Positions 42,850 to 54,923 of a DNA stretch of 64,000 nt are shown one piece after another. This DNA comes from Thermococcus sp. SY098. GTDB lineage: Archaea > Methanobacteriota_B > Thermococci > Thermococcales > Thermococcaceae. Under the pieces are notes generated by a model that ran no database searches, was not told the DNA's origin, and was given only the letters and a program-made list of their open reading frames with translations. A program made the position numbers and the translations under genes. The stretch is taken from positions 1,020,760 to 1,084,759 of the forward strand of contig NZ_CP141821.1 in assembly GCF_035621495.1 (NCBI RefSeq). The letters run 5' to 3'. The stretch's first letter is position 1. Every line of letters begins with the position of its first letter.

Positions 42850-42917
42850 TGTCCTGTCTTTCTTTTTTGAATGAACTTATTAACCACACAGCTGAAGGTT
42901 GATATAAGGTGGTGTCA

Positions 42918-43781
42918 TTGGAGGAAAAGCTTACTGAGGCAGTTATTGAGGCAATTCGATTAGCCGTTACAAACCTTCCTGAAGATGTCATCAACGCAAT
43001 TAAGCTGGCATATGAAAGAGAAGAAAGCAGAATTGCAAAATTTAATCTTGAGAACATTCTTAAATCAATTGAAATCGGCAAAAATGAGAGAATTCCTATC
43101 TGCCAAGATACTGGAACAATAACTTTTTTCGTTGAAGCCGGGATTGGAAATCCATATCTTGGTAAAATTAGGGGAATTTTAGTGAAAGCGACAAGAAGAG
43201 CTACACAAGAAGTCCCCCTAAGACCCAACGCTGTTGATGTTCTCACGAACAAAAATTCCGGAGATAACACTGGCAGGTTCGTGCCAGTAATACATTGGGA
43301 GCTTGTTGATGGGGACAAGATAAGAATAGCAGTCCTGCCCAAAGGTGGAGGGAGTGAGAACTGCTCAGCTTTGGCAATGCTCAACCCAATCGAAGGCTTT
43401 GAAGGCGTCAAGCGTTTTGTTGTGAAAAGGGTGAGAGAATGCGGAGGTAAGCCCTGTCCGCCAGTGATTCTTGGTGTGGGAATTGGAGGAAGTGCTGATT
43501 TAGCTTTAAAACTTGCCAAAAAATCACTTTTAAGGCCTCTTGGAATAAGGCATGAAAATGAAAAAATTGCCCAATTGGAGAAGGACATCCTTGATAAAGT
43601 CAACTCACTTGGAATTGGACCAATGGGCATGGGAGGAAACACAACCGCTTTGGATGTTAAGGTAGAATACGCCCACAGACATCCAGCTTCTCTACCTGTA
43701 GGATTGATAGTTCAGTGCTGGGCCCACAGAAAAGCATTCATTGAGGTTGATGAAAAGGGGAGAGCTAAGATTTGGCAGTGA
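42918..43781 (+). CDS. fumA: Class I fumarate hydratase, alpha subunit
   Basis: The 287-residue subunit carries the [4Fe-4S] ligands and substrate site of the two-subunit fumarase: PICQDTGTITFFVEAG, GGGSENCSAL, CGGKPCPPVILGVGIGGSAD and GIGPMGMGGNTTALDV. AGGTGG favours TTG 42918 over the in-frame GTG codons at 42909 and 42912. The partner beta subunit would normally follow directly but lies at 54402. The 3' end overlaps the convergent STAND gene by 17 bases. Confidence 0.93.
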   Translation: MEEKLTEAVIEAIRLAVTNLPEDVINAIKLAYEREESRIAKFNLENILKSIEIGKNERIPICQDTGTITFFVEAGIGNPYLGKIRGILVKATRRATQEVPLRPNAVDVLTNKNSGDNTGRFVPVIHWELVDGDKIRIAVLPKGGGSENCSALAMLNPIEGFEGVKRFVVKRVRECGGKPCPPVILGVGIGGSADLALKLAKKSLLRPLGIRHENEKIAQLEKDILDKVNSLGIGPMGMGGNTTALDVKVEYAHRHPASLPVGLIVQCWAHRKAFIEVDEKGRAKIWQ

Positions 43782-46041
43782 TCTTTGAGACATTGAATAC
43801 CTTCCCAAGTTCCTCCAAAACAGCATCATAAAGCCAGGAATAATCTTTCAGCTTTTCTTTTCCAAGCTCAAAATACTCTTTTCCGCTCTCTCCTTTAAGC
43901 TCTTTAATTGCCCCCAAAAAGATATATCCTGCCCAGCCAAGAGGATAGTTAGTGCTTTGAGCAATTCTTATCATTTCCTCAGCATCTTTTTCGGCTTCGT
44001 CAAGGTCTTTCAACCCAATGTAGGATACGCATCTATATGCAAGAGTGTCAATTGCCCTACGGTAGTTTCTGACTTTTAAAAAATATTCCACAGCTTTGCC
44101 TGAATATTCAACCGCTGTTTTATAATCTCCCAGGGAATAGTATGCCTTCATGAGTTCCATATAAGAGATGTGCCCCATAAACGTCAAGTTGTAGGCTTTT
44201 GCAATTTCTAAAGCTTGGAGATAGTACTGAACGGCATTTTCAAGTTTCTTCATAGCAATGTAGATATCTCCAACATGAAGAAGAGCAAGACTTTCAAGCT
44301 CTGGGTAAGGCTCCATTTTCCTTATTACCTCAAGTTCTTTAAAAGCACTCCTGAGGGCATCGTCAGACCTCTCTGTATAGAAATAGAACTTTGTAAGCTC
44401 AACATAATACCAGAACTTGATCTCTAAGTCATCGCTGTTTTTTGCAATGCTTTCGAGCTCTTTCAGGTATTTTTCCGCTTCCTTGAAGTCATTGAGCTCC
44501 ATGCAAACATCTGCTAAGGAACTTATTACATCTGCTCTGTGAATCCCATCAAGGTCATCTTTAACTTCAAGCCAAAGCTTTAGAGCTTTTTCAAAGAAGC
44601 CTCTCTGAAAGTATATATGACCCAATTCCTTCTTAGCGTAGGGATTTCCTTTGATCTGAATTAGAATCCTCATGTATGCATCTGGGAAGTCCTGAACGAC
44701 TCTCTTAAATTTTCTTAGTCTTAACTCAGTCAGATCTTTGATTATCTTTTCATCACCAAGCTTAGTTGCATATCTGAATGCTGTTAGAAAGTTTTTGGCG
44801 GTTTTCTTTTTCAACAGATAATTCAAATATCTCAAATAGTATTCCCTCTCATCTATCTCCCTCACTTCCTTTGCAAATCCTTTGAGCAAATCATGGAGGA
44901 AGTAAATTTCTCCCCTCTTTTCGATTATTCCTTTGTTCAATAGAGAGTATAGAACAACAAAGGAATTTTTCCTTCCGTACAGTGTCTTAATTGCATCGTA
45001 TTCAAGAGGATCATCAAACAGAGAGATTACCTGAACCATCAGCTTTTCATCCGGACTTAACTGCTGATACACCTCACTGAAAAGAAAATCAAAAAAGTTG
45101 TCCGTTCTTACCTTTTGGTTTTCCTTATATGCCCCCGCAAAAAGAGTTAAAGCCAATGGATGCCCCTTTGTTAGGTTGTAAATCTCAACGAAATCCGATA
45201 TATCGAGATTCAAGCCTTTTGCCCTTAAGAGGGTATATGCATCTTTGAGACTCAGGCCCCTTAGGTGGAAATACAGAATGTTTTCATCAGCGCCAAGACG
45301 CAACTTTTCTCTGGATATCAAAACAAGCTTTCCATCTCTTATTCTCAGCGCTAAAAATGAAAGCAATCTAAGTATCCTTTCATCGGAGCATTTATGAACA
45401 TCATCAATAACAATTTTAGCTTTTGTGTTTTCTATTCCCTCCAGTATCAGCTCGAATAAGTCTCTCTCCTCCCTACCCCCACTCCTCAGGTACTCCAAAA
45501 GCAACGAATAGTCAAAGGTGTTTAAAAACAGCCCAATCTGCCAGACAAAATAATCGAAGCTGTCAACTTCGCTCATCTGGTACCAGAAAGCATCTTCAAA
45601 AACTTTTGCTGCCAAAGCAGTTTTTCCAATCCCAGCTATCCCATAAATCACTATCACAGGCTTTTTTGATGAGGATAGAGTGCTTATCTCAGCTTTTCTT
45701 CCAAAGAATGCCTCAACTTTTGGCATTTTGCTTTCAAGAAGGGAAATCTCATAACTTCTATCCTTGGAGGTTTTTATTATAATTCCTCCAGGTTCAAAGC
45801 TGATCTTAACTTCTCCTACCTTTAAAGAATAAATCCTGATGTTCTTATTCCTAACCCTCATCCATTTTCCTTCAACCAGACCTACTCTCTCCAACATCTT
45901 CAAACGTCTTGAAACATCGGTCTCATCCCTTTGGAGAATCCTCGCAAGCTCTCTTGGATTAAACGAGCCAGACTTAAGAATGGACAAAATCTGAAGGTTC
46001 ACCTCATTAGAGAGAACTTTCATTAGTTGCGGAACGTCCAT
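43765..46041 (-). CDS. STAND-type ATPase regulator with HTH and TPR domains
   Basis: The 758-residue protein starts with an ArsR/Mar-like winged helix (residues 5-75: ILSILKSGSFNPRELARILQRDETDVSRRLKML). An NB-ARC/STAND ATPase follows with P-loop GIAGIGKT (134-141), Walker B IVIDDVHK and LKGFAKEVREID. The long C-terminal half is TPR-like (HIYFQRGFFEKALKLWLEV, ADVCMELNDFKEAEKYLKELE). This is the MalT-like signal-sensing plan. It is the only regulator between fumA and fumB and may control the surface operon upstream of it. Confidence 0.85.
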   Translation of the reverse strand: MDVPQLMKVLSNEVNLQILSILKSGSFNPRELARILQRDETDVSRRLKMLERVGLVEGKWMRVRNKNIRIYSLKVGEVKISFEPGGIIIKTSKDRSYEISLLESKMPKVEAFFGRKAEISTLSSSKKPVIVIYGIAGIGKTALAAKVFEDAFWYQMSEVDSFDYFVWQIGLFLNTFDYSLLLEYLRSGGREERDLFELILEGIENTKAKIVIDDVHKCSDERILRLLSFLALRIRDGKLVLISREKLRLGADENILYFHLRGLSLKDAYTLLRAKGLNLDISDFVEIYNLTKGHPLALTLFAGAYKENQKVRTDNFFDFLFSEVYQQLSPDEKLMVQVISLFDDPLEYDAIKTLYGRKNSFVVLYSLLNKGIIEKRGEIYFLHDLLKGFAKEVREIDEREYYLRYLNYLLKKKTAKNFLTAFRYATKLGDEKIIKDLTELRLRKFKRVVQDFPDAYMRILIQIKGNPYAKKELGHIYFQRGFFEKALKLWLEVKDDLDGIHRADVISSLADVCMELNDFKEAEKYLKELESIAKNSDDLEIKFWYYVELTKFYFYTERSDDALRSAFKELEVIRKMEPYPELESLALLHVGDIYIAMKKLENAVQYYLQALEIAKAYNLTFMGHISYMELMKAYYSLGDYKTAVEYSGKAVEYFLKVRNYRRAIDTLAYRCVSYIGLKDLDEAEKDAEEMIRIAQSTNYPLGWAGYIFLGAIKELKGESGKEYFELGKEKLKDYSWLYDAVLEELGKVFNVSKITAKS

Positions 46042-46210
46042 CTGGTGACACCTTCTTTATCTAATCTATGCATTCTACATTTTTATATTCATCGCTGTAC
46101 AATTTTGAAAAATTGTTAGAAGTTTGGAATCCAAGCACATGTTGAAGATTTTATTTTACAATTAACAAAGTGTGATGAATGTTTAAAAGTAGAAAGGGAG
46201 GATGGAACCC

Positions 46211-49200
46211 CTAAGTGTTTTGTAGTAGTTCTACGGCTTGTTTTATGTAGAGGTATGCTTTTCTCATGTGCACTAAAGCCCTGATGTCCGCCTGCAAGAG
46301 TGATTGGTAATGTTCTTCAACCCAAGTGTATTCATTCCTTGCCTGGTCAAAAAGGCTTTGAACAGTGTTTAGAGTCTCGTTATCAATGAAGTCAAGCGAT
46401 TGATTGTAAAGTTTGTTGAACTTCTCCAAAGTTTTATGATACCAGAGGTAGTACAAGTACGTTAGGAGTGTAATGGATGGTTGGCTGGATGTAGTGCTCT
46501 CATTCAATTCTTGAAGAACAATGGTAAACTCAACGGCATCACTTGCAGAATTTCCGGCAATATCGTAAGCATAAACCCTTATTACGTGATGTCCTTTGCC
46601 AAGATTCACTTTGCCCACATAGTACTCCCCGTCAAACTCCAGGGTAACCCATGTTGAATCATCCACTAATGCTTTGACCTCTCCAATCATATGGTCATCA
46701 CTTGCTTTCACCTTAATTTCAGTGACATTTTGATAATAGGTTGTGTTCTCCGGATATAAGATCGCTACCTCCGGCGGCGTCGTGTCAAATGATATTGTCA
46801 GTGGAAGGTAGTCAATGTTGTTCTCGTCTATTATGTAGGGAACATCACAGAATCCATCTAAGTTATTATCTTCACAATCCCCCAAATCGCTCCAGTAGTT
46901 TCCTCCAAGATAATTTCCTCCAAGAATGTTTCTACCCAGAGTTTTAGTAACATTCCAGTAGTTAACCCCACCCAAGACTTTTGCGTTTCTCTCGTTGGAG
47001 AGATAGTTGTTGTAGATTAGATTGCCGCTTGAACCAGCTATGTACACTCCAAGGAGATTGTCCACAAGATAGTTGCCCCTTATTGTATTGTTTCCACTTC
47101 CGGGCCTCAAGTAGAAGCCTACTCCTCCCTTCTCAATCCTGTTGCCCTCAATTGTGTTCTCAGCTGAGTTTGAATCAAGCTCAACTCCCGAGCCCTTTGC
47201 ATTCTCTATTACGTTTCCTCTGATGATACTTAGCCTTGTTCCCTTAAGGTAAATTCCGTCCCCCTCTATTGAATAAATGTGGTTTAATGAAATCTCAGCA
47301 TTCACTGAATTCCTCACATCAATCCCTTCAGCAGTCTTCCCAGAAACTGAAATTCCTCCAATTGCCAAGTTCTTTGTGTCTTCAGCATAAACCCCGGCAA
47401 GAAGCCAGTTGCTCAGATTAAAGCTGACAATGGTAATGTTTTCCACGTTGATGGCTTTTATTCCGTAGAGTGCCCAATCACCTCCGCTGAGAACACTTCC
47501 GGATCCATCGAGGAGGACGTTGCTTGAGTTGATGAGTATTGCATACTGGCTTGTAATGCCGCTTGCGTTGATATTGAGCCTGTAATAGCCGGGTTCATTG
47601 AGTATTATTGGAAACGTTTTGTTTTCAATTACCTTTACCCTGTCCTCGAAGAAAACGAGGGGCTGGTAGTCCATGAACCCCTCAGCCACTTGATAGGGAT
47701 CATCGGCTATGCCATCCATGTTTTTGTCCTCAGCATCTGTGTATTTCGCCCAATAGTTACCTGCTATGAACGGCCCTCCAACGATGTTTTTTCCTATTCT
47801 CTTGGTTGTGTTGAAGGCTACCCCATCTTCAGTAACGTAATATGGGATGTAAACATCAACATCATTATCAAAGTAGTTGTTGTAAACGAGGTTTCCTTTA
47901 ATTGTCCTGCCCAAGAAGGATAAGCCACGGGAATTGTTTATCAGTATGTTGCCTGTCACAACGTTGCCCTCAACGCTCTTAAATCCCTTATACATCGTCT
48001 CTGTCCTTACCCATCCTATTCCGACAATGGAAGCATTTATCACCGTGTTGTTGGCTATTATGTTATCCCTTGAGCTCTGGGCATAATAGAAGTATCCGCC
48101 GCTGAAAACTATTCCTCCTCCCACATTGGCAATGAAGTTTCCGGCAATGGTATTGTTGAACATTTGGAATTTTGCTATCATGGTTATTCCATGGGTACCG
48201 TTGATGAGTGTATTGTTGGCTACAATTATTCCATCCAAAGTACTTCCGCCAATCGTTATTCCCTTCCCTGCATTCTCAAGCACGTTGTTTGAAATTGTTA
48301 TGTTCCCAAGCCTTTCGATCATATAAGCCTGTACTCCCCAGGATGTGTTCACTATCACGTTGCCTTCTATAAGAACATCCTTAATGTGAAAGCCCCCTGA
48401 AATGGAGCTTATCCCTATTCCGCTAAAGGAATTCAGTATTTTGTTGTCAACAATCTTACATTCGTCGCACTCTGGCAAGAATATGGCGTAACCAGAGCAG
48501 TTCACGAATGTAGTTCTTATGATGTTCACTTCCGATGGTTCTCTCACTAAGGCTCCAGCCGCTCCACTAACTCCATCGAACTGGTGCTCAATCTTTGAAT
48601 CAACTACAGTTAGGATGGGGTAATTATTTCCGCCAAAAGAAACGTAAATTCCAACACTGACATCTTTATAAGTGAGGTTCCTCCCAACTATTTCGGTTCT
48701 TATCAGGGCTGAATTCCCTCCAACTGCCACAAAACCTCTGGAATTTGAGATCGTGTAAGTTTCATTAGTTATCATCCACCTTCCATTGACTTTCTTCTCA
48801 TACCTCTCACTTAAAACCCCACCGTATCCATGGATTATCCTGGTGTTTACTATTGTTGTGTTTGAGTAAAGGACAACAATTCCGCTTTTGCCTTCAACGC
48901 TTGAATCCTTAACCGTGAGGTTCGAATTGAAAGCAAAAACCGGTAAATCAGTGTCTTTAATCTCTGCATTCCTAATCACCAAAGAGCTGTTTACTGCTAT
49001 TACCTGACCTGCTTCATAAATCACCTTATTCCTTGCATTTTCAAGGTAAAGGAGTGGCTTATCATTTACCGTGTTGTCCCTTATCTCAATGTTTGTAGCA
49101 TACAGCTCTACAGGAGGACTCAAAAGCCTACATTCGCCGGTGAAGCATATTCCATTGTTTTCGAAGGTATTATTAATTACCGTTAGTCCTTCAATCTTGT

Positions 49201-51916
49201 GAGGTTCTTGTTCAACCGTGGCATAATATCCAAATCCGAATCCGCCTCTTGTATTGTTTGATATGAGGTTTCCTTCGAGTGTAACGGCTTTTCCGTAGGA
49301 TATGAAAATGCCGAGGAGATTGTTGTTTCTTATTGTATTGCCTTTTATTGTCAAATTCTCGCCGTAAGCACAGATTCCGGTTCCAGCTCTACAGAAGGAT
49401 TCACCTTCTGGCATGTAATAAACTGTATAGTAACCTGTGGGGTCAGTATATAGCCTGGGGATTACTACCTTCTTGCCCCAAACCTCATAATACCTCAAGT
49501 ACGCAATTGACGACCTCACTGAGCTGTTCTCTATGATGTTGCTTGAAACATCCATATTTGTGACGTTCCGTCCCTCTATCCCAATGTAGCTTTCTTTTAT
49601 TACGTTGTTCGCTATTCTAATATCTTTGTTTTTTAAGAAAAGCATAGCCCTTCCAAAGCTGTGGATGAACTTGCTGCTTTCAATTGTTATGTCATTGGAG
49701 TATATGGAGAGCAGAACACTCGCTGGAAAATCAATGAACTCGCTGTTTCTTATGGATATCTGGGATGAATTCCTTATGTAAATTCCGCTCGCTGCTTTAG
49801 GCTCTTCGGCTTTTACATCGTTAACTTCCACATCTTTGGAATTCATTATTACAACCGGGGAATCGAACGACTTTCTAACGCTCAGTCCGCTGATCTTCAC
49901 ACTGCTGGAATTCACAACTATTACCTGATAAGAAACGGTGTCCACGGTGATACCAGAGGAATTAACTACGAAAACCTGAGAGGCATCGTTTATCACAACG
50001 TTCTTTTCGTTTTTCACCATAACAACGGGCTTACCGTTTATGGTGGTGTCCTTCACAGTGAAGTCAAACCAGTAGTTTAAAGGCTTTGAATAGTATCCTA
50101 CTACAACAAAACCTCCCCAAGAAATTGGATATATTATGGGCTTAGGAGGCAGATCTATGTTCGAGATGTAGTCATTGACGAGAATGTTGTCCTCTATACT
50201 GCTCTTTGAGTGGATCCATATCCCTATCCCGGCATTATCATGTATGTAGTTGCCTTTGATCACGTTATTGTTACCGTAAACATCTATTATTCCGCCGCTT
50301 GCATTGGCCACAAAGTAGTAAGGGTAATAGTATGGGAAAAGCTCCTGGCGCGTATCTATTTTCTCAAAGTATGAATTTGTTACATCCGTAGCAACTGGAC
50401 CGATTCCGTTTCCTGCCACTTCGTTGTTAACTATAGATGAATCGGAAACGTTGTAGAATACTATTCCCGCTCCCCAGTCCCTGTAACTGAACTCATATCC
50501 GATTCTATCGTCATCCAAATAGTGAGTTACATAGTAGTCCGTGTTGTCCTTTATGAGGTTGTCTGAAACTGTTATGTTGTCAGAACTGAGAACTTTTATG
50601 CCAATGCGGTTTTTGGATATCCTGTTGTTAGCTATCCTGGCATGGGAGACGTTGTAAAACATCACTCCAACTCCCCAATCGGGGAAATTTATGAATTCAG
50701 TGGCTCTATTGTTGCTATTTATAACGTTGTTCGCTATTGTCACGTTCTTAGAATGAGGTACGATGACTCCCATGAGATTTTTGGATATGGTATTGCTCTC
50801 AATGGTAAGATTCCAAACGTTAGGTGCAATTATCCCCTCAAGGTTTTCAGAGATTACATTGTTTCTAATTGTTATATTCCATGAAAGATTCTGGAACACT
50901 GTGATGGCATATCCCAAATTCGACACTGAAACTTGAGGGTCAGTAGGTGGATTTATTGCAATTCCAATTGAATTATTGGTTATGTTATTTCTTTCGGCGT
51001 TTAGTTTCCCTGAGCCTGTAATTAAAATTCCAACAGCATTGTTTTTTATAACATTTTCCTTGGCTGGTAGGGATATTTCATCTGGTGCTGGAGAACCACT
51101 GGCATAGTAGTTTATCCCAAGGGTGTTATTTTTTATAACGTTTCCAACTATCTGGGGGCAGCCCAAGTATCTGTCGCAAATTACTTTCCCATAATGGATG
51201 TATATTCCACTGCCACCATTCATATAAAGGCTGGAGTTACCATTGTTCTCGAAAGTGTTGTTGGCTATTACAAAGGGGAATAGCTCATTGTGGTAGATGT
51301 CGAATAAAAAGTTGCTGATGTAACCTCCTACTACTATCCCGTATCCATTGTTCCGAAACGTGATATTGTAAATCGCAATACCACTTACAACAACATTTGC
51401 ACTAGCATATATTCCTTTTTTTGTAGTGTTTGTTATAGTGTCCCGCCGTTCAATAAAATATGAAGTGGCTAAGTCGATTCCTATGTCCCATCCTTCTATT
51501 TCCATATTGCGTATAATCACCCCCGGTGTAGAATGTACAGCAATATCGTGGTCAAGGTACACTGCACTGAAACTTAGATTGTAAGAAAACTTAGATTTGT
51601 CCAGCTTAAGGACTATTTTGTGCCCACTCCCATCTATAGTGCCCAAACCAACTCCACGTGGCATATAAAAGCAAGTATATCCCACAAGCTTCTTCACTTT
51701 GGATCCGTTTATTGTTACATAGTCATATACAGGAATTAGCTGATCTGGATCAGTTATCACTATGTCCTTTGTCAGAACTACGAGTCCGGGTGTGCCAAGA
51801 ATAGCACACGAGCTTACAAACGTAGGAGGAAAATCCAATCCAGATATGAACTTGAAATTCCCAAAAAAGCTTGAAACCAAAAGGAAGGAGAGAAGGAACA
51901 CCAAACCCTTTCTCAT
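46211..51916 (-). CDS. Giant secreted beta-helix (NosD/CASH-type) surface protein
   Basis: The 1901-residue protein has a signal peptide (1-26), then about 1500 residues of parallel beta-helix rungs with recurring INNNxIxxNxxGI-like steps. Two NosD-type endings are visible (GNYWAKYTDAEDKNMDGIAD near residue 1386 and GNYWSDLGDCEDNNLDGFCD near 1674). An Ig-like domain after TTPPEVAILYPE and a helical C-terminal segment of about 90 residues follow. No C-terminal membrane anchor is seen. It probably binds or cleaves polysaccharide, or forms a surface fibre. Its ATG overlaps the stop of the 50-residue gene. Confidence 0.88.
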   Translation of the reverse strand: MRKGLVFLLSFLLVSSFFGNFKFISGLDFPPTFVSSCAILGTPGLVVLTKDIVITDPDQLIPVYDYVTINGSKVKKLVGYTCFYMPRGVGLGTIDGSGHKIVLKLDKSKFSYNLSFSAVYLDHDIAVHSTPGVIIRNMEIEGWDIGIDLATSYFIERRDTITNTTKKGIYASANVVVSGIAIYNITFRNNGYGIVVGGYISNFLFDIYHNELFPFVIANNTFENNGNSSLYMNGGSGIYIHYGKVICDRYLGCPQIVGNVIKNNTLGINYYASGSPAPDEISLPAKENVIKNNAVGILITGSGKLNAERNNITNNSIGIAINPPTDPQVSVSNLGYAITVFQNLSWNITIRNNVISENLEGIIAPNVWNLTIESNTISKNLMGVIVPHSKNVTIANNVINSNNRATEFINFPDWGVGVMFYNVSHARIANNRISKNRIGIKVLSSDNITVSDNLIKDNTDYYVTHYLDDDRIGYEFSYRDWGAGIVFYNVSDSSIVNNEVAGNGIGPVATDVTNSYFEKIDTRQELFPYYYPYYFVANASGGIIDVYGNNNVIKGNYIHDNAGIGIWIHSKSSIEDNILVNDYISNIDLPPKPIIYPISWGGFVVVGYYSKPLNYWFDFTVKDTTINGKPVVMVKNEKNVVINDASQVFVVNSSGITVDTVSYQVIVVNSSSVKISGLSVRKSFDSPVVIMNSKDVEVNDVKAEEPKAASGIYIRNSSQISIRNSEFIDFPASVLLSIYSNDITIESSKFIHSFGRAMLFLKNKDIRIANNVIKESYIGIEGRNVTNMDVSSNIIENSSVRSSIAYLRYYEVWGKKVVIPRLYTDPTGYYTVYYMPEGESFCRAGTGICAYGENLTIKGNTIRNNNLLGIFISYGKAVTLEGNLISNNTRGGFGFGYYATVEQEPHKIEGLTVINNTFENNGICFTGECRLLSPPVELYATNIEIRDNTVNDKPLLYLENARNKVIYEAGQVIAVNSSLVIRNAEIKDTDLPVFAFNSNLTVKDSSVEGKSGIVVLYSNTTIVNTRIIHGYGGVLSERYEKKVNGRWMITNETYTISNSRGFVAVGGNSALIRTEIVGRNLTYKDVSVGIYVSFGGNNYPILTVVDSKIEHQFDGVSGAAGALVREPSEVNIIRTTFVNCSGYAIFLPECDECKIVDNKILNSFSGIGISSISGGFHIKDVLIEGNVIVNTSWGVQAYMIERLGNITISNNVLENAGKGITIGGSTLDGIIVANNTLINGTHGITMIAKFQMFNNTIAGNFIANVGGGIVFSGGYFYYAQSSRDNIIANNTVINASIVGIGWVRTETMYKGFKSVEGNVVTGNILINNSRGLSFLGRTIKGNLVYNNYFDNDVDVYIPYYVTEDGVAFNTTKRIGKNIVGGPFIAGNYWAKYTDAEDKNMDGIADDPYQVAEGFMDYQPLVFFEDRVKVIENKTFPIILNEPGYYRLNINASGITSQYAILINSSNVLLDGSGSVLSGGDWALYGIKAINVENITIVSFNLSNWLLAGVYAEDTKNLAIGGISVSGKTAEGIDVRNSVNAEISLNHIYSIEGDGIYLKGTRLSIIRGNVIENAKGSGVELDSNSAENTIEGNRIEKGGVGFYLRPGSGNNTIRGNYLVDNLLGVYIAGSSGNLIYNNYLSNERNAKVLGGVNYWNVTKTLGRNILGGNYLGGNYWSDLGDCEDNNLDGFCDVPYIIDENNIDYLPLTISFDTTPPEVAILYPENTTYYQNVTEIKVKASDDHMIGEVKALVDDSTWVTLEFDGEYYVGKVNLGKGHHVIRVYAYDIAGNSASDAVEFTIVLQELNESTTSSQPSITLLTYLYYLWYHKTLEKFNKLYNQSLDFIDNETLNTVQSLFDQARNEYTWVEEHYQSLLQADIRALVHMRKAYLYIKQAVELLQNT

Positions 51917-52065
51917 AACTTTACCCCCTCCTTCTCAAGGGCTTTTTTAATCTGCATCATAAAAAAAGCTTCTTCAGCCCTCAACACCTCAACAACGGTT
52001 TTCTTATCTATTCCAGTGCTCCTGCTTATGTATTCCACAAGCTCCTTCCTTATCTCCCTGATCAT
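51913..52065 (-). CDS. Small 50-residue helical protein
   Basis: The frame translates as MIREIRKELVEYISRSTG, then IDKKTVVEVLRAEEAFFMMQ, then IKKALEKEGVKL. It starts in an ATGA overlap with the upstream gene and stops in an ATGA overlap with the giant gene. A GAGGGA site precedes the start. Two amphipathic helices joined at STGIDKKTV resemble a minimal helix-turn-helix, but the family is not recognised. Unbroken coupling on both sides is the main reason to call it real. Confidence 0.75.
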   Translation of the reverse strand: MIREIRKELVEYISRSTGIDKKTVVEVLRAEEAFFMMQIKKALEKEGVKL

Positions 52066-52682
52066 TTCTTTTCCCTCTTCAGAGGGACGTTAAGAGCAAC
52101 AAGACCCACTATCGAAATCCCGGCAAGGGCTAAGAAAACAGGATTTTTGCCGCTCTCTTTGTATGGGAGCTCGTACCTAATCACATTATTTTCAAATCTG
52201 ATGTTCTTTGCCTTCTCTGGGAGAACAACGGTTATCGTCTCAACCAACCTGCCCTGTCCCCCGAAGAGTGGCTGAACCGCCGTTAAAACAACCGTATTTC
52301 CTGTCTGGGTTGAGAGAGTCAGGTCTCCCTCCCCCAGTTTCAGTTCCCAATAGGAGCCTTTATTCACTGCCGCTCCAAGCATTACATATGTAGCTTTAAT
52401 CTGGTTGTTGGAGTCATCCCACTCAATCTTCATGTTCCTGTACTCCGTATCGCTCCTCTTGTTCTCAAACTCCCTCTTCAGCATGTATGTAGTGGGATAA
52501 GCCTGCTTCATCTGGAGATAGAGGTTTGGGGTAAACTTCCACACCTCGGTAACCTTAGCATTTCCAACTTCATCAACCGTGATCTTCATTGTGCCGTCTA
52601 TCTTGTACTCAACTATCTTTATCTCCTGCGCAACTGCCAGCGGAAGGAGTAAAAGGACGAGTAAAACCACAGCCCTCCTCAT
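52062..52682 (-). CDS. Membrane-anchored secreted protein, unknown
   Basis: The 206-residue protein starts MRRAVVLLVLLLLPLAVAQ, a clear signal peptide. A beta-rich extracellular domain follows (YKIDGTMKITVDEVGNAKVTEVWKF, YWELKLGEGDLTLSTQTGNTV), and the protein ends with a membrane span (about 184-201) and KREKK. Upstream in-frame GTG and ATG codons at 52691 and 52688 would overlap the preceding stop, so the start is not certain. Type I topology with the bulk outside suits a surface receptor or anchor for the neighbouring secreted proteins. Confidence 0.75.
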   Translation of the reverse strand: MRRAVVLLVLLLLPLAVAQEIKIVEYKIDGTMKITVDEVGNAKVTEVWKFTPNLYLQMKQAYPTTYMLKREFENKRSDTEYRNMKIEWDDSNNQIKATYVMLGAAVNKGSYWELKLGEGDLTLSTQTGNTVVLTAVQPLFGGQGRLVETITVVLPEKAKNIRFENNVIRYELPYKESGKNPVFLALAGISIVGLVALNVPLKREKK

Positions 52683-52687
52683 CTCCA

Positions 52688-54289
52688 TCACCCCAGCCTG
52701 AAGGTGCTTACCATATATTCACCCAACTGGTTGTATTCGCTCATCCCGGCTGGAAAGTCATAAACAACCGCAAATCCAATGCCGTTCGCTGTGAAATACC
52801 TCGCAACTGCGGAGTACTCTCCATAGCCTGTGTCAAGAGTGTAAAGAATTGTGTAAACTGTCTGACCGGCTATGCTTGCCTGGGTTTCCTGCCTGTCTTT
52901 TATCGTTGCTCCCATGTCAGTTAAGCTCTGCTCGAAGGCATAAACCATGTCCTGAACGCTCGCACCCGGCAGATAAATTACTAGAAACTCAAATTCTCCG
53001 TCAGGGCTCAGCAAGTAGACGTAGCCACCGTAGTCCTCCGGCGCACCCCACTCGGCAGGGTAGTCAAAGGAGAAGTAAGTCCCATGGTAGGTGTCCCACT
53101 GGGTTTGAGTCCCACCGTTCTCTCCGTTGTCACCCCAATTGTTGTCTCCACCGTTGTTGGTGTTCCCTCCATTGTTGTCCATATTTCCTCCCTGTAGCTT
53201 TATCCCCCACTTTGCGAGAATATCAGCGGGCAGAGTTGGAAGTTCAGGAGGCACAATGCCTTTTGCATGCTCCCCTGCAATATCCACTATGATGTAAGGC
53301 CCCTGCATGGCTTTCTGCCAAGTTTCCACACCGACCTGAACCGCCTGCTGGAACGAAACGCCCGCATTTATTGCGGTTGCCTCAACTGGAATTATTGCAC
53401 CGCTGGGTAGCTCTATTAGGGGGAAAGCATGACCAGGCATCAGAACTATATAAGCTTTGAGACCCTGAGACATTGCCAGAGAAGCAAACCACAACGCCAA
53501 ATCAACACAGGTTCCGCTCTTATCCCTAATTACGTCACGTGGAAACATTATATGCTCGGAGAACTTGCCAGTCCAGTAGCCTTCAGCCTCCGTCTTGTAT
53601 GAGAAGCCGTTCATCACAGCCAAAGTCCACATGCCACTTAGGCTTTTAATGGCTTCATCGTCGCTTAAGCTTGCTCCCGCTCCACCCGCTAACTTGTTTC
53701 CCATGTCAGCAAATTCTCTAACAACTGGATCGCTTGGGGTAACCCAAGCAGCTAAAAGCGGAGCATTGCTGAAGGTGTCATAAAAGCTACCGGTGCTTTC
53801 CTCAGGGCTGAGCGATGAAAAGACGAAGTCGTTGACGCCGAGAATGTTCAGAGGTTTTGTCATGCTCTCTTCTTTAGTCTCTCCGTTCACTTCATAGGTT
53901 ATGGTTATTCTGAGGTTTGAAGGCGTTGAAGCCGAAAGCTTGGTGACTTCACTTGAGAGAATCGGGTAGTAGAGATCAACTATCGTCCCGTTGGGCACGA
54001 GAATTGGGTAGCTTTTCTCGGTCTCAGAGGCATAGTTGTCAATTGAGTATCTTATCTTTATGTTCCTTATCGCCCCATTCCCTGAGTTATGGAGAACAAC
54101 TTTTGCGACCCAGAAGCCAAGCTTTGGATTGCCGTAAACTTTGTATGCTCCAGACATTATCTGCTCCTTTGCATAAACTTTATACTCAAGCTTTCCCTCT
54201 CCTCCGCCTCCAAACGCTCCGACATATCCTACTATGGAAAACACAAGCAGTGCAACAAGAATCCCCGAACCAATAATCTTGGTGTTCAT
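52688..54289 (-). CDS. Secreted transglutaminase-like protein
   Basis: The 533-residue protein has a signal peptide (1-25), an N-terminal Ig-like domain, and a transglutaminase-like core with the Cys-His-acid set C261 (DKSGTCVDLALWFASL), H287 (MPGHAF) and E303 (IPVEAT). An Asn/Gly-rich linker lies at about 376-408. A C-terminal domain starting YHGTYFSFDYPAEWG has a PsbP/Mog1-like look. It could cleave or crosslink peptides at the cell surface. It is first in the operon, and GGTGATGG precedes ATG 54289. Confidence 0.82.
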   Translation of the reverse strand: MNTKIIGSGILVALLVFSIVGYVGAFGGGGEGKLEYKVYAKEQIMSGAYKVYGNPKLGFWVAKVVLHNSGNGAIRNIKIRYSIDNYASETEKSYPILVPNGTIVDLYYPILSSEVTKLSASTPSNLRITITYEVNGETKEESMTKPLNILGVNDFVFSSLSPEESTGSFYDTFSNAPLLAAWVTPSDPVVREFADMGNKLAGGAGASLSDDEAIKSLSGMWTLAVMNGFSYKTEAEGYWTGKFSEHIMFPRDVIRDKSGTCVDLALWFASLAMSQGLKAYIVLMPGHAFPLIELPSGAIIPVEATAINAGVSFQQAVQVGVETWQKAMQGPYIIVDIAGEHAKGIVPPELPTLPADILAKWGIKLQGGNMDNNGGNTNNGGDNNWGDNGENGGTQTQWDTYHGTYFSFDYPAEWGAPEDYGGYVYLLSPDGEFEFLVIYLPGASVQDMVYAFEQSLTDMGATIKDRQETQASIAGQTVYTILYTLDTGYGEYSAVARYFTANGIGFAVVYDFPAGMSEYNQLGEYMVSTFRLG

Positions 54290-54401
54290 ACCATCACCGA
54301 AGTTAAATTGGCAAAACAGATACTTACAGGCTGGGTTTGAGAAAATTAATCAAACCCAAAAAAGCTTTAAAGAAAGAGATAAACCCCATCATGGTGATGT
54401 T

Positions 54402-54923
54402 ATGGAGCTAAAAGCGCCTTTGAGCAAGAAAGATGTCCTAAAACTTAAAACTGGCGACATTGTTCATCTTTCTGGAGTCATATACACGGCAAGGGATTTA
54501 GCCCACAGAAAGATTGTTGAGCTTGCAAGAAGGGGAAAGCTACCCTTCGATTTAGAGGGTGCTGTCATATACCACTGCGGACCCATTGTCCGAAAAAACG
54601 AAAGATTTGAAATAATATCAGCAGGCCCAACAACAAGTGCAAGGATGAATCGTTATCTCGATGAAGTTTTATCTTTAGGAGTTAAGGGGATTATCGGAAA
54701 GGGAGGAATGAATCCTGAACCCTTTAAAAGACACAAAGCTGTTTATTTCGCATTCACCGGCGGAGCAGGATCTTTAGCGGCTAAGAGCATTAAAAGAGTA
54801 AGAGATGTTTTCTGGCTCGATGAACTTGGCACTCCCGAGGCAGTTTGGGTGTTGGAGGTTGAAAAATTCCCGCTTTTGGTTGCTATTGATGCATATGGAA
54901 ATTCGATTTACAAAAAGAGTTAA
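54402..54923 (+). CDS. fumB: Class I fumarate hydratase, beta subunit
   Basis: The 173-residue subunit begins MELKAPLSKKDVLKLKTGDIVHLSGVIYTARDLAHRK and contains YHCGPIV, SAGPTTSARM, GKGGMN and FTGGAGSLAAKSIK, the diagnostic beta-subunit motifs. It completes the swivelling domain of fumarase with the alpha subunit at 42918. GGTGATG precedes ATG 54402. A TATA-like CTTTAAAG near 54364-54371 gives it a promoter of its own, as it must have after separation from the alpha gene. Confidence 0.93.
   Translation: MELKAPLSKKDVLKLKTGDIVHLSGVIYTARDLAHRKIVELARRGKLPFDLEGAVIYHCGPIVRKNERFEIISAGPTTSARMNRYLDEVLSLGVKGIIGKGGMNPEPFKRHKAVYFAFTGGAGSLAAKSIKRVRDVFWLDELGTPEAVWVLEVEKFPLLVAIDAYGNSIYKKS

Follow-up and report, generated by a model that had tools for sequence, protein, structure and literature searches.

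The cassette described here, found in the hyperthermophilic archaeal order Thermococcales, is probably a mobile, single-operon regulon for surface proteins that is activated by a STAND regulator. It was recognised in a 64,000-nucleotide stretch of the Thermococcus sp. SY098 genome (the window) and followed through whole-genome searches of 94 Thermococcaceae genomes. Comparison of these genomes reveals a recurrent gene set with a core made of a small protein and the STAND regulator, exchange of the cargo genes around this core, a single conserved promoter site, insertion into a fumarase locus, loss, and the scars of former copies.

In the window the cassette lies on the minus strand. The first gene, TG (52688-54289, 533 aa), encodes a protein that comprises, from N- to C-terminus, a membrane or signal segment, an Ig-like domain, a transglutaminase-like domain (C261, H287, E303), a Gly/Asn-rich linker and a PsbP-like domain. 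It is followed by TM (52062-52691, 209 aa), with a secreted beta domain and a C-terminal transmembrane anchor, by the gene for the small protein (51913-52065, 50 aa), a two-helix protein, and by the giant (46211-51916, 1901 aa), a secreted right-handed beta-helix with NosD-like repeats, a Big_7 domain and a helical tail. The small gene overlaps both neighbours by 4 nt, in each case as ATGA, and the TG/TM junction is a 4-nt overlap from the GTG start of TM or, if the following ATG is taken as the start, of 1 nt (TGATG). The next gene after the giant encodes the STAND regulator (43765-46041, 758 aa), with an ArsR-like HTH, an NB-ARC/NOD module and a TPR sensor, a homologue of Pyrococcus horikoshii PH0952 (PDB 6mfv). 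Upstream of TG, a palindrome, GGGTTTGA-N9-TCAAACCC (54333-54357, minus strand), is the predicted operator and proposed STAND site, and 6 nt downstream of it lies a weak TATA-like element, TAAGTA (54321-54326, minus strand). The STAND gene has a TATA-like element of a separate promoter, ATATAAAA (46081-46088, minus strand), where the palindrome is absent. The insertion is flanked by the genes for the fumarase alpha subunit (42909-43781) and beta subunit (54402-54923), both on the plus strand. The initial annotation had described a unit of four genes with tight junctions, and all four open reading frames and the three junctions are real. The unit is nevertheless larger than described and is centred elsewhere: the stated span of 51913-54289 contains TG, TM and small but omits the giant, and the gene list overlooked the STAND gene, the operator and the fumarase genes on either side.

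TG, TM and small occur in identical order, mostly with 4-nt overlaps, at 20 loci in 19 of the 94 genomes, a conservation of gene order beyond chance. TM is present in these 19 genomes, and the rest of the phylum yielded no match to it at E<=0.001; full-length TG is found in the same 19, and one further genome (G113) contributes a 199-aa fragment. The small gene is more widespread (28/94), as is STAND (31/94), and every small-positive genome is also STAND-positive (Fisher p 7e-21, on genome counts that ignore relatedness); the cassettes occupy several different loci, which bears on the shared-ancestry caveat of such statistics. In three STAND genomes with fragmented assemblies (G088, G094, G102) neither the small gene nor the operator was detected. 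STAND adjoins 16 of the 20 TG loci, divergently in two of them (L016, L045), and lies elsewhere in the same genome for L041-L043; L012 is a broken contig. The giant is intact at only three TG loci (the window, L014 and L040), absent from 15 and reduced to a 203-aa remnant at L011, with L012 left out of these counts. Small, giant and STAND also occur together without TG and TM, for example in P. horikoshii, where the regulator is PH0952. The giants in this arrangement have 4436 aa in P. horikoshii and 4498, 4544 and 4645 aa in three others, and small sits directly upstream of these unrelated proteins with a 4-nt overlap in seven of the eight giant-only loci and a distance of 14 nt in P. horikoshii. 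Judged by gene content, the shared core consists of small plus STAND, and both TG-TM and the giant are cargo that can be exchanged.

The tight junctions had been taken as the sign of a stoichiometric assembly, in which the products of all four genes build one surface machine and TG crosslinks or cleaves the giant fibre. The four genes do follow one another with 4-nt overlaps in the window and stand together at two other loci (L014, L040), so that the originally proposed refutation by a lack of co-occurrence does not apply; the catalytic triad is invariant, and the proteins appear secreted or anchored and produced in translational coupling, as originally proposed; no described system with this set was found in the literature searched either. 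The stoichiometric reading is nonetheless not supported, because small is coupled equally to unrelated giants of 4400-4650 aa in the absence of TG and TM, and because the history of TG-TM-small differs from that of giant-STAND. With the giant missing from 15 of 20 TG loci, many giant loci devoid of TG-TM, and the tail of the giant not specific to the system, such a machine is very unlikely.

The different histories are seen in pairwise identities. Between the window and L014, from the same genus, TG, TM and small are 85, 83 and 84% identical, and STAND and the giant only 62 and 44%. Between L014 and L040, from another genus, the corresponding values are 78, 80 and 80% for TG, TM and small, and 86 and 92% for STAND and the giant. 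These opposite patterns indicate that giant-STAND moves separately from TG-TM-small. The cassette as a whole is also mobile: in the window, about 10 kb in opposite orientation separate the fumarase alpha and beta genes, which are adjacent or about 0.2 kb apart in genomes without a cassette there, and other copies have an MBL-fold or a flavodiiron gene nearby (identified by eye). The fumarase-splitting arrangement is seen at seven further loci. An IS200/605-like transposase gene, also identified by eye, lies between small and STAND at L015:7755-9065. Several cassettes also have, a few kb away, genes for very large secreted proteins of a second family, with the N-terminus ..IYLLLASYLNVGFVG.. (L045:9631-19901, L046:1-7406, L107:1-8361, L110:14077-19001).

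The regulator is identified by its alignment with PH0952 (structure 6mfv_A, E 5.5e-267, profile positions 103-753), which supports full-length homology, and from its matches to HTH_20, NB-ARC (above cut-off) and TPR profiles together with a P-loop motif, GIAGIGKT. PMC6468293, which reports the solved structure, terms PH0952 a putative transcription regulator and a relative of MalT, and presents it as the first solved structure of a STAND ATPase that carries a TPR sensor. No inducer or target of PH0952 was found in the literature searched, including the passages of PMC6468293 consulted, nor any report on the neighbours of PH0952 or on a TERMP locus. In three MAGs (L100, L101, L102) two tandem STAND genes stand behind a giant surface protein, the second copy being about 50% identical to the STAND of the window.

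Comparison of upstream regions yields a 25-bp palindrome, GGGTTTGA-N9-TCAAACCC, followed by 6 nt and by TAAGTA or a close variant. It precedes the first gene of every cassette whose start is readable, 32 in number, four times in degenerate form: it is found at 20/20 TG loci (degenerate at L042 and L043), at the eight giant-only loci L201-L208 (AGG- at L206, one mismatch at L208), at L114 and L210, where TG-TM is deleted, and, degenerate, at L105 and L106. The PH0952 locus (L201, L212, L113) has small, giant and STAND together with the same palindrome. The 6-nt spacing to TAAGTA is fixed at every readable operator, and at TG loci the operator ends 43-47 nt ahead of the start codon. A scan for the exact pattern GGTTTGR-N9-TCAAACC found it in 27 of the 94 genomes, compared with four for a reversed control. 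Twenty-five of the 27 are STAND-positive, and the remaining two (G020, G113) hold cassette scars: an isolated operator with a C-terminal STAND remnant in G020 (L217:1052-1195, minus strand), and an operator with the 199-aa TG remnant in G113 (C5:631597-632268). There is about one operator per genome, nearly confined to cassettes, with only two extra sites (G075, G002).

The palindrome could instead form a hairpin in the 5' UTR, or be an element general to Thermococcales, with STAND a linked neighbour and no more, since its perfect 8-bp inverted repeat and 9-nt loop are able to fold. This is improbable given the near-confinement to cassettes at roughly one site per genome, the fixed spacing to TAAGTA, and the arrangement at L041, where the 3' end of a tRNA lies 4 nt upstream of the operator and leaves no space for an upstream TATA box. 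The promoter must therefore lie downstream of the operator, which would place the latter in the position of an archaeal activator site. In two genomes (G092, G097) the TG locus and a separate small-giant-STAND locus carry an identical altered right arm, CAAAGCC, as expected if one regulator reads both loci. The palindrome is absent upstream of STAND, except at two divergent loci where the site is shared, and several loci show a separate ATATAAAA-type element for STAND that lacks a palindrome. We infer that the palindrome is the binding site of STAND, and that STAND activates rather than represses the operon, although the predicted site could belong to another HTH protein.

The regulon would most likely work as follows. 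The STAND sensor would be produced constitutively from its own promoter. A cytoplasmic inducer would bind the TPR sensor (the inducer of MalT is maltotriose), upon which STAND would bind the palindrome just upstream of the weak TATA-like element and activate one operon from this weak promoter. The operon would deliver a small cytoplasmic helical protein together with exchangeable surface cargo: the TG-like thiol enzyme with its membrane-anchored partner, a giant of the beta-helix or CARDB/PKD type, or both. The small protein, made along with the cargo, would probably feed back on STAND or assist the coupling, and the cargo would be exported to the cell surface, where it presumably serves in attachment or surface remodelling. 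This cassette logic of a fixed sensor and a coupled small protein with swappable surface cargo may help to find related archaeal systems and may account for very large proteins that lack annotation, among them the one of 4436 aa in P. horikoshii.

The TG protein contains the Cys-His-Asp/Glu triad of transglutaminase-like enzymes in a GxC...PGHA...E context. As first noted from the window, the triad looks intact, and none of C261, H287 and E303 varies among 19 orthologues or in two homologues of about 29% identity (L018/L019), which are lipoprotein-like and come from another archaeal family. The window protein stays below the curated cut-off of Transglut_core2 (16.6 vs 23.5 bits); weak matches occur in 18 of 19 members, with DUF553 and Transglut_core in five each. 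In the AlphaFold model most of the domain has a pLDDT <50, probably owing to a shallow alignment, so the fold assignment rests on the motifs and the weak HMM matches. The PsbP-like tail was also borne out, by a Foldseek match to 1v2b (E 6e-6) and by PsbP_2 matches in six of 19 members. TG may act as an enzyme, and TM may anchor it or present its substrate.

The transglutaminase-like domain of TG aligns with the N-terminus of the NCBIfam model antiphage_ProA (NF058533; E 4e-13, 47.6 bits, profile positions 12-311). Membership of that family was rejected, as the cut-off of the model (~1900 aa) is 1500 bits and the N-terminal TG-like stretch alone aligns; no relative exceeds this cut-off, and no description of ProA was found in the literature searched. 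The remote kinship speaks for the idea of an anti-virus or competition island, in which STAND would sense an invader protein in the manner of Avs/NLR proteins and the surface cargo would block entry or contact. STAND proteins are common immune sensors, and a patchy, mobile cassette with exchangeable, fast-evolving cargo would suit such a role. The regulator, however, carries an ArsR-like DNA-binding domain with a promoter site in place of a toxic effector, the score against ProA is far off, PADLOC returned zero matches for TG, TM, small or giant, and no cassette copies were found in viral or plasmid collections. A defensive function is therefore unlikely, and a regulon for surface proteins is the preferred reading.

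TM is an anchored protein, as expected from the window: a signal-like helix lies at its N-terminus, and a transmembrane helix with a basic end at its C-terminus. The four best Foldseek matches of its AlphaFold model (pLDDT 80) are chains of ribophorin I (RPN1), a subunit of OST, with a best E of 1e-4 and a probability of 1.0, yet the superposition is poor (TM-score 0.28, rmsd 14.6). Pfam Ribophorin_I gave no match at E<=1 in 10 genomes and none in the 19 TM members, so that ribophorin I was dropped as an identity by sequence and kept as a structural lead only. The TM fold had no match at E<=0.001 among viral structures. It would be a long shot to combine these leads into an undescribed archaeal transamidase complex, in which the NLR/Apaf-related STAND senses a specific intracellular signal, a molecule of an invader or partner, and turns on the one operon, and membrane-tethered TG with its ribophorin-like partner covalently modifies or attaches surface proteins as part of a mobile, surface-remodelling system. 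The small protein lacks a signal peptide, goes together with the cytoplasmic STAND and not with the surface proteins, and may modulate STAND or couple translation; its weak matches to the HU-type profile Bac_DNA_binding, in 10 of 18 members, stay below the cut-off (16.8 vs 22.4 bits).

The giant of the window matches NosD and Beta_helix profiles strongly, in agreement with its initial description as a beta-helix, and falls far under the cut-off of the NosD copper-maturation model TIGR04247 (101.6 vs 300 bits). The giants without TG-TM are of the CARDB/PKD/Ig type, and the two classes have in common only the Big_7 domain and the helical tail. This tail domain (window 46214-46513, minus strand), which ends in ..YMRKAYL..K.A..LL and to which Pfam assigns no name, occurs in 80 of the 94 genomes on many unrelated surface ORFs, which rules it out as a substrate tag for TG. 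No TG domain was found within the giants. Processing or crosslinking of the giant by TG, as had been suggested, is unlikely as a general rule because the giant is often missing, the coupling is non-specific and the gene histories differ.

Several known systems resemble parts of the cassette. With the NosD family the giant shares the repeat architecture only, and the nitrous-oxide reductase context is absent. In LapG/LapA-type adhesin processing, a transglutaminase-like thiol enzyme is encoded beside a giant surface protein. The cassette resembles this pairing in the window, but most TG loci have no giant, no Lap-type receptor was recognised and the partners are different; a release system of this type was set aside, as the obligatory pairing of TG with a giant does not hold in 15 of 20 TG loci. 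The adhesin-like proteins of Methanobrevibacter contain right-handed beta-helix, Ig-like and transglutaminase-like domains (PMC11532034), the same domain types, secreted or anchored, as the cassette cargo. In the cassette, by contrast, TG stands alone as an enzyme; it has a membrane partner of its own, and its mobile operon comes with a dedicated STAND regulator. In regulation the likeness is to the PH0952/MalT type, which the STAND of the window resembles over its full length, with the ArsR-like HTH, NOD, arm and TPR sensor. The passages of PMC6468293 consulted name no inducer or target for PH0952, whereas the cassettes allow an operon and a site to be proposed, so that an operator and one target operon can now be predicted for PH0952.
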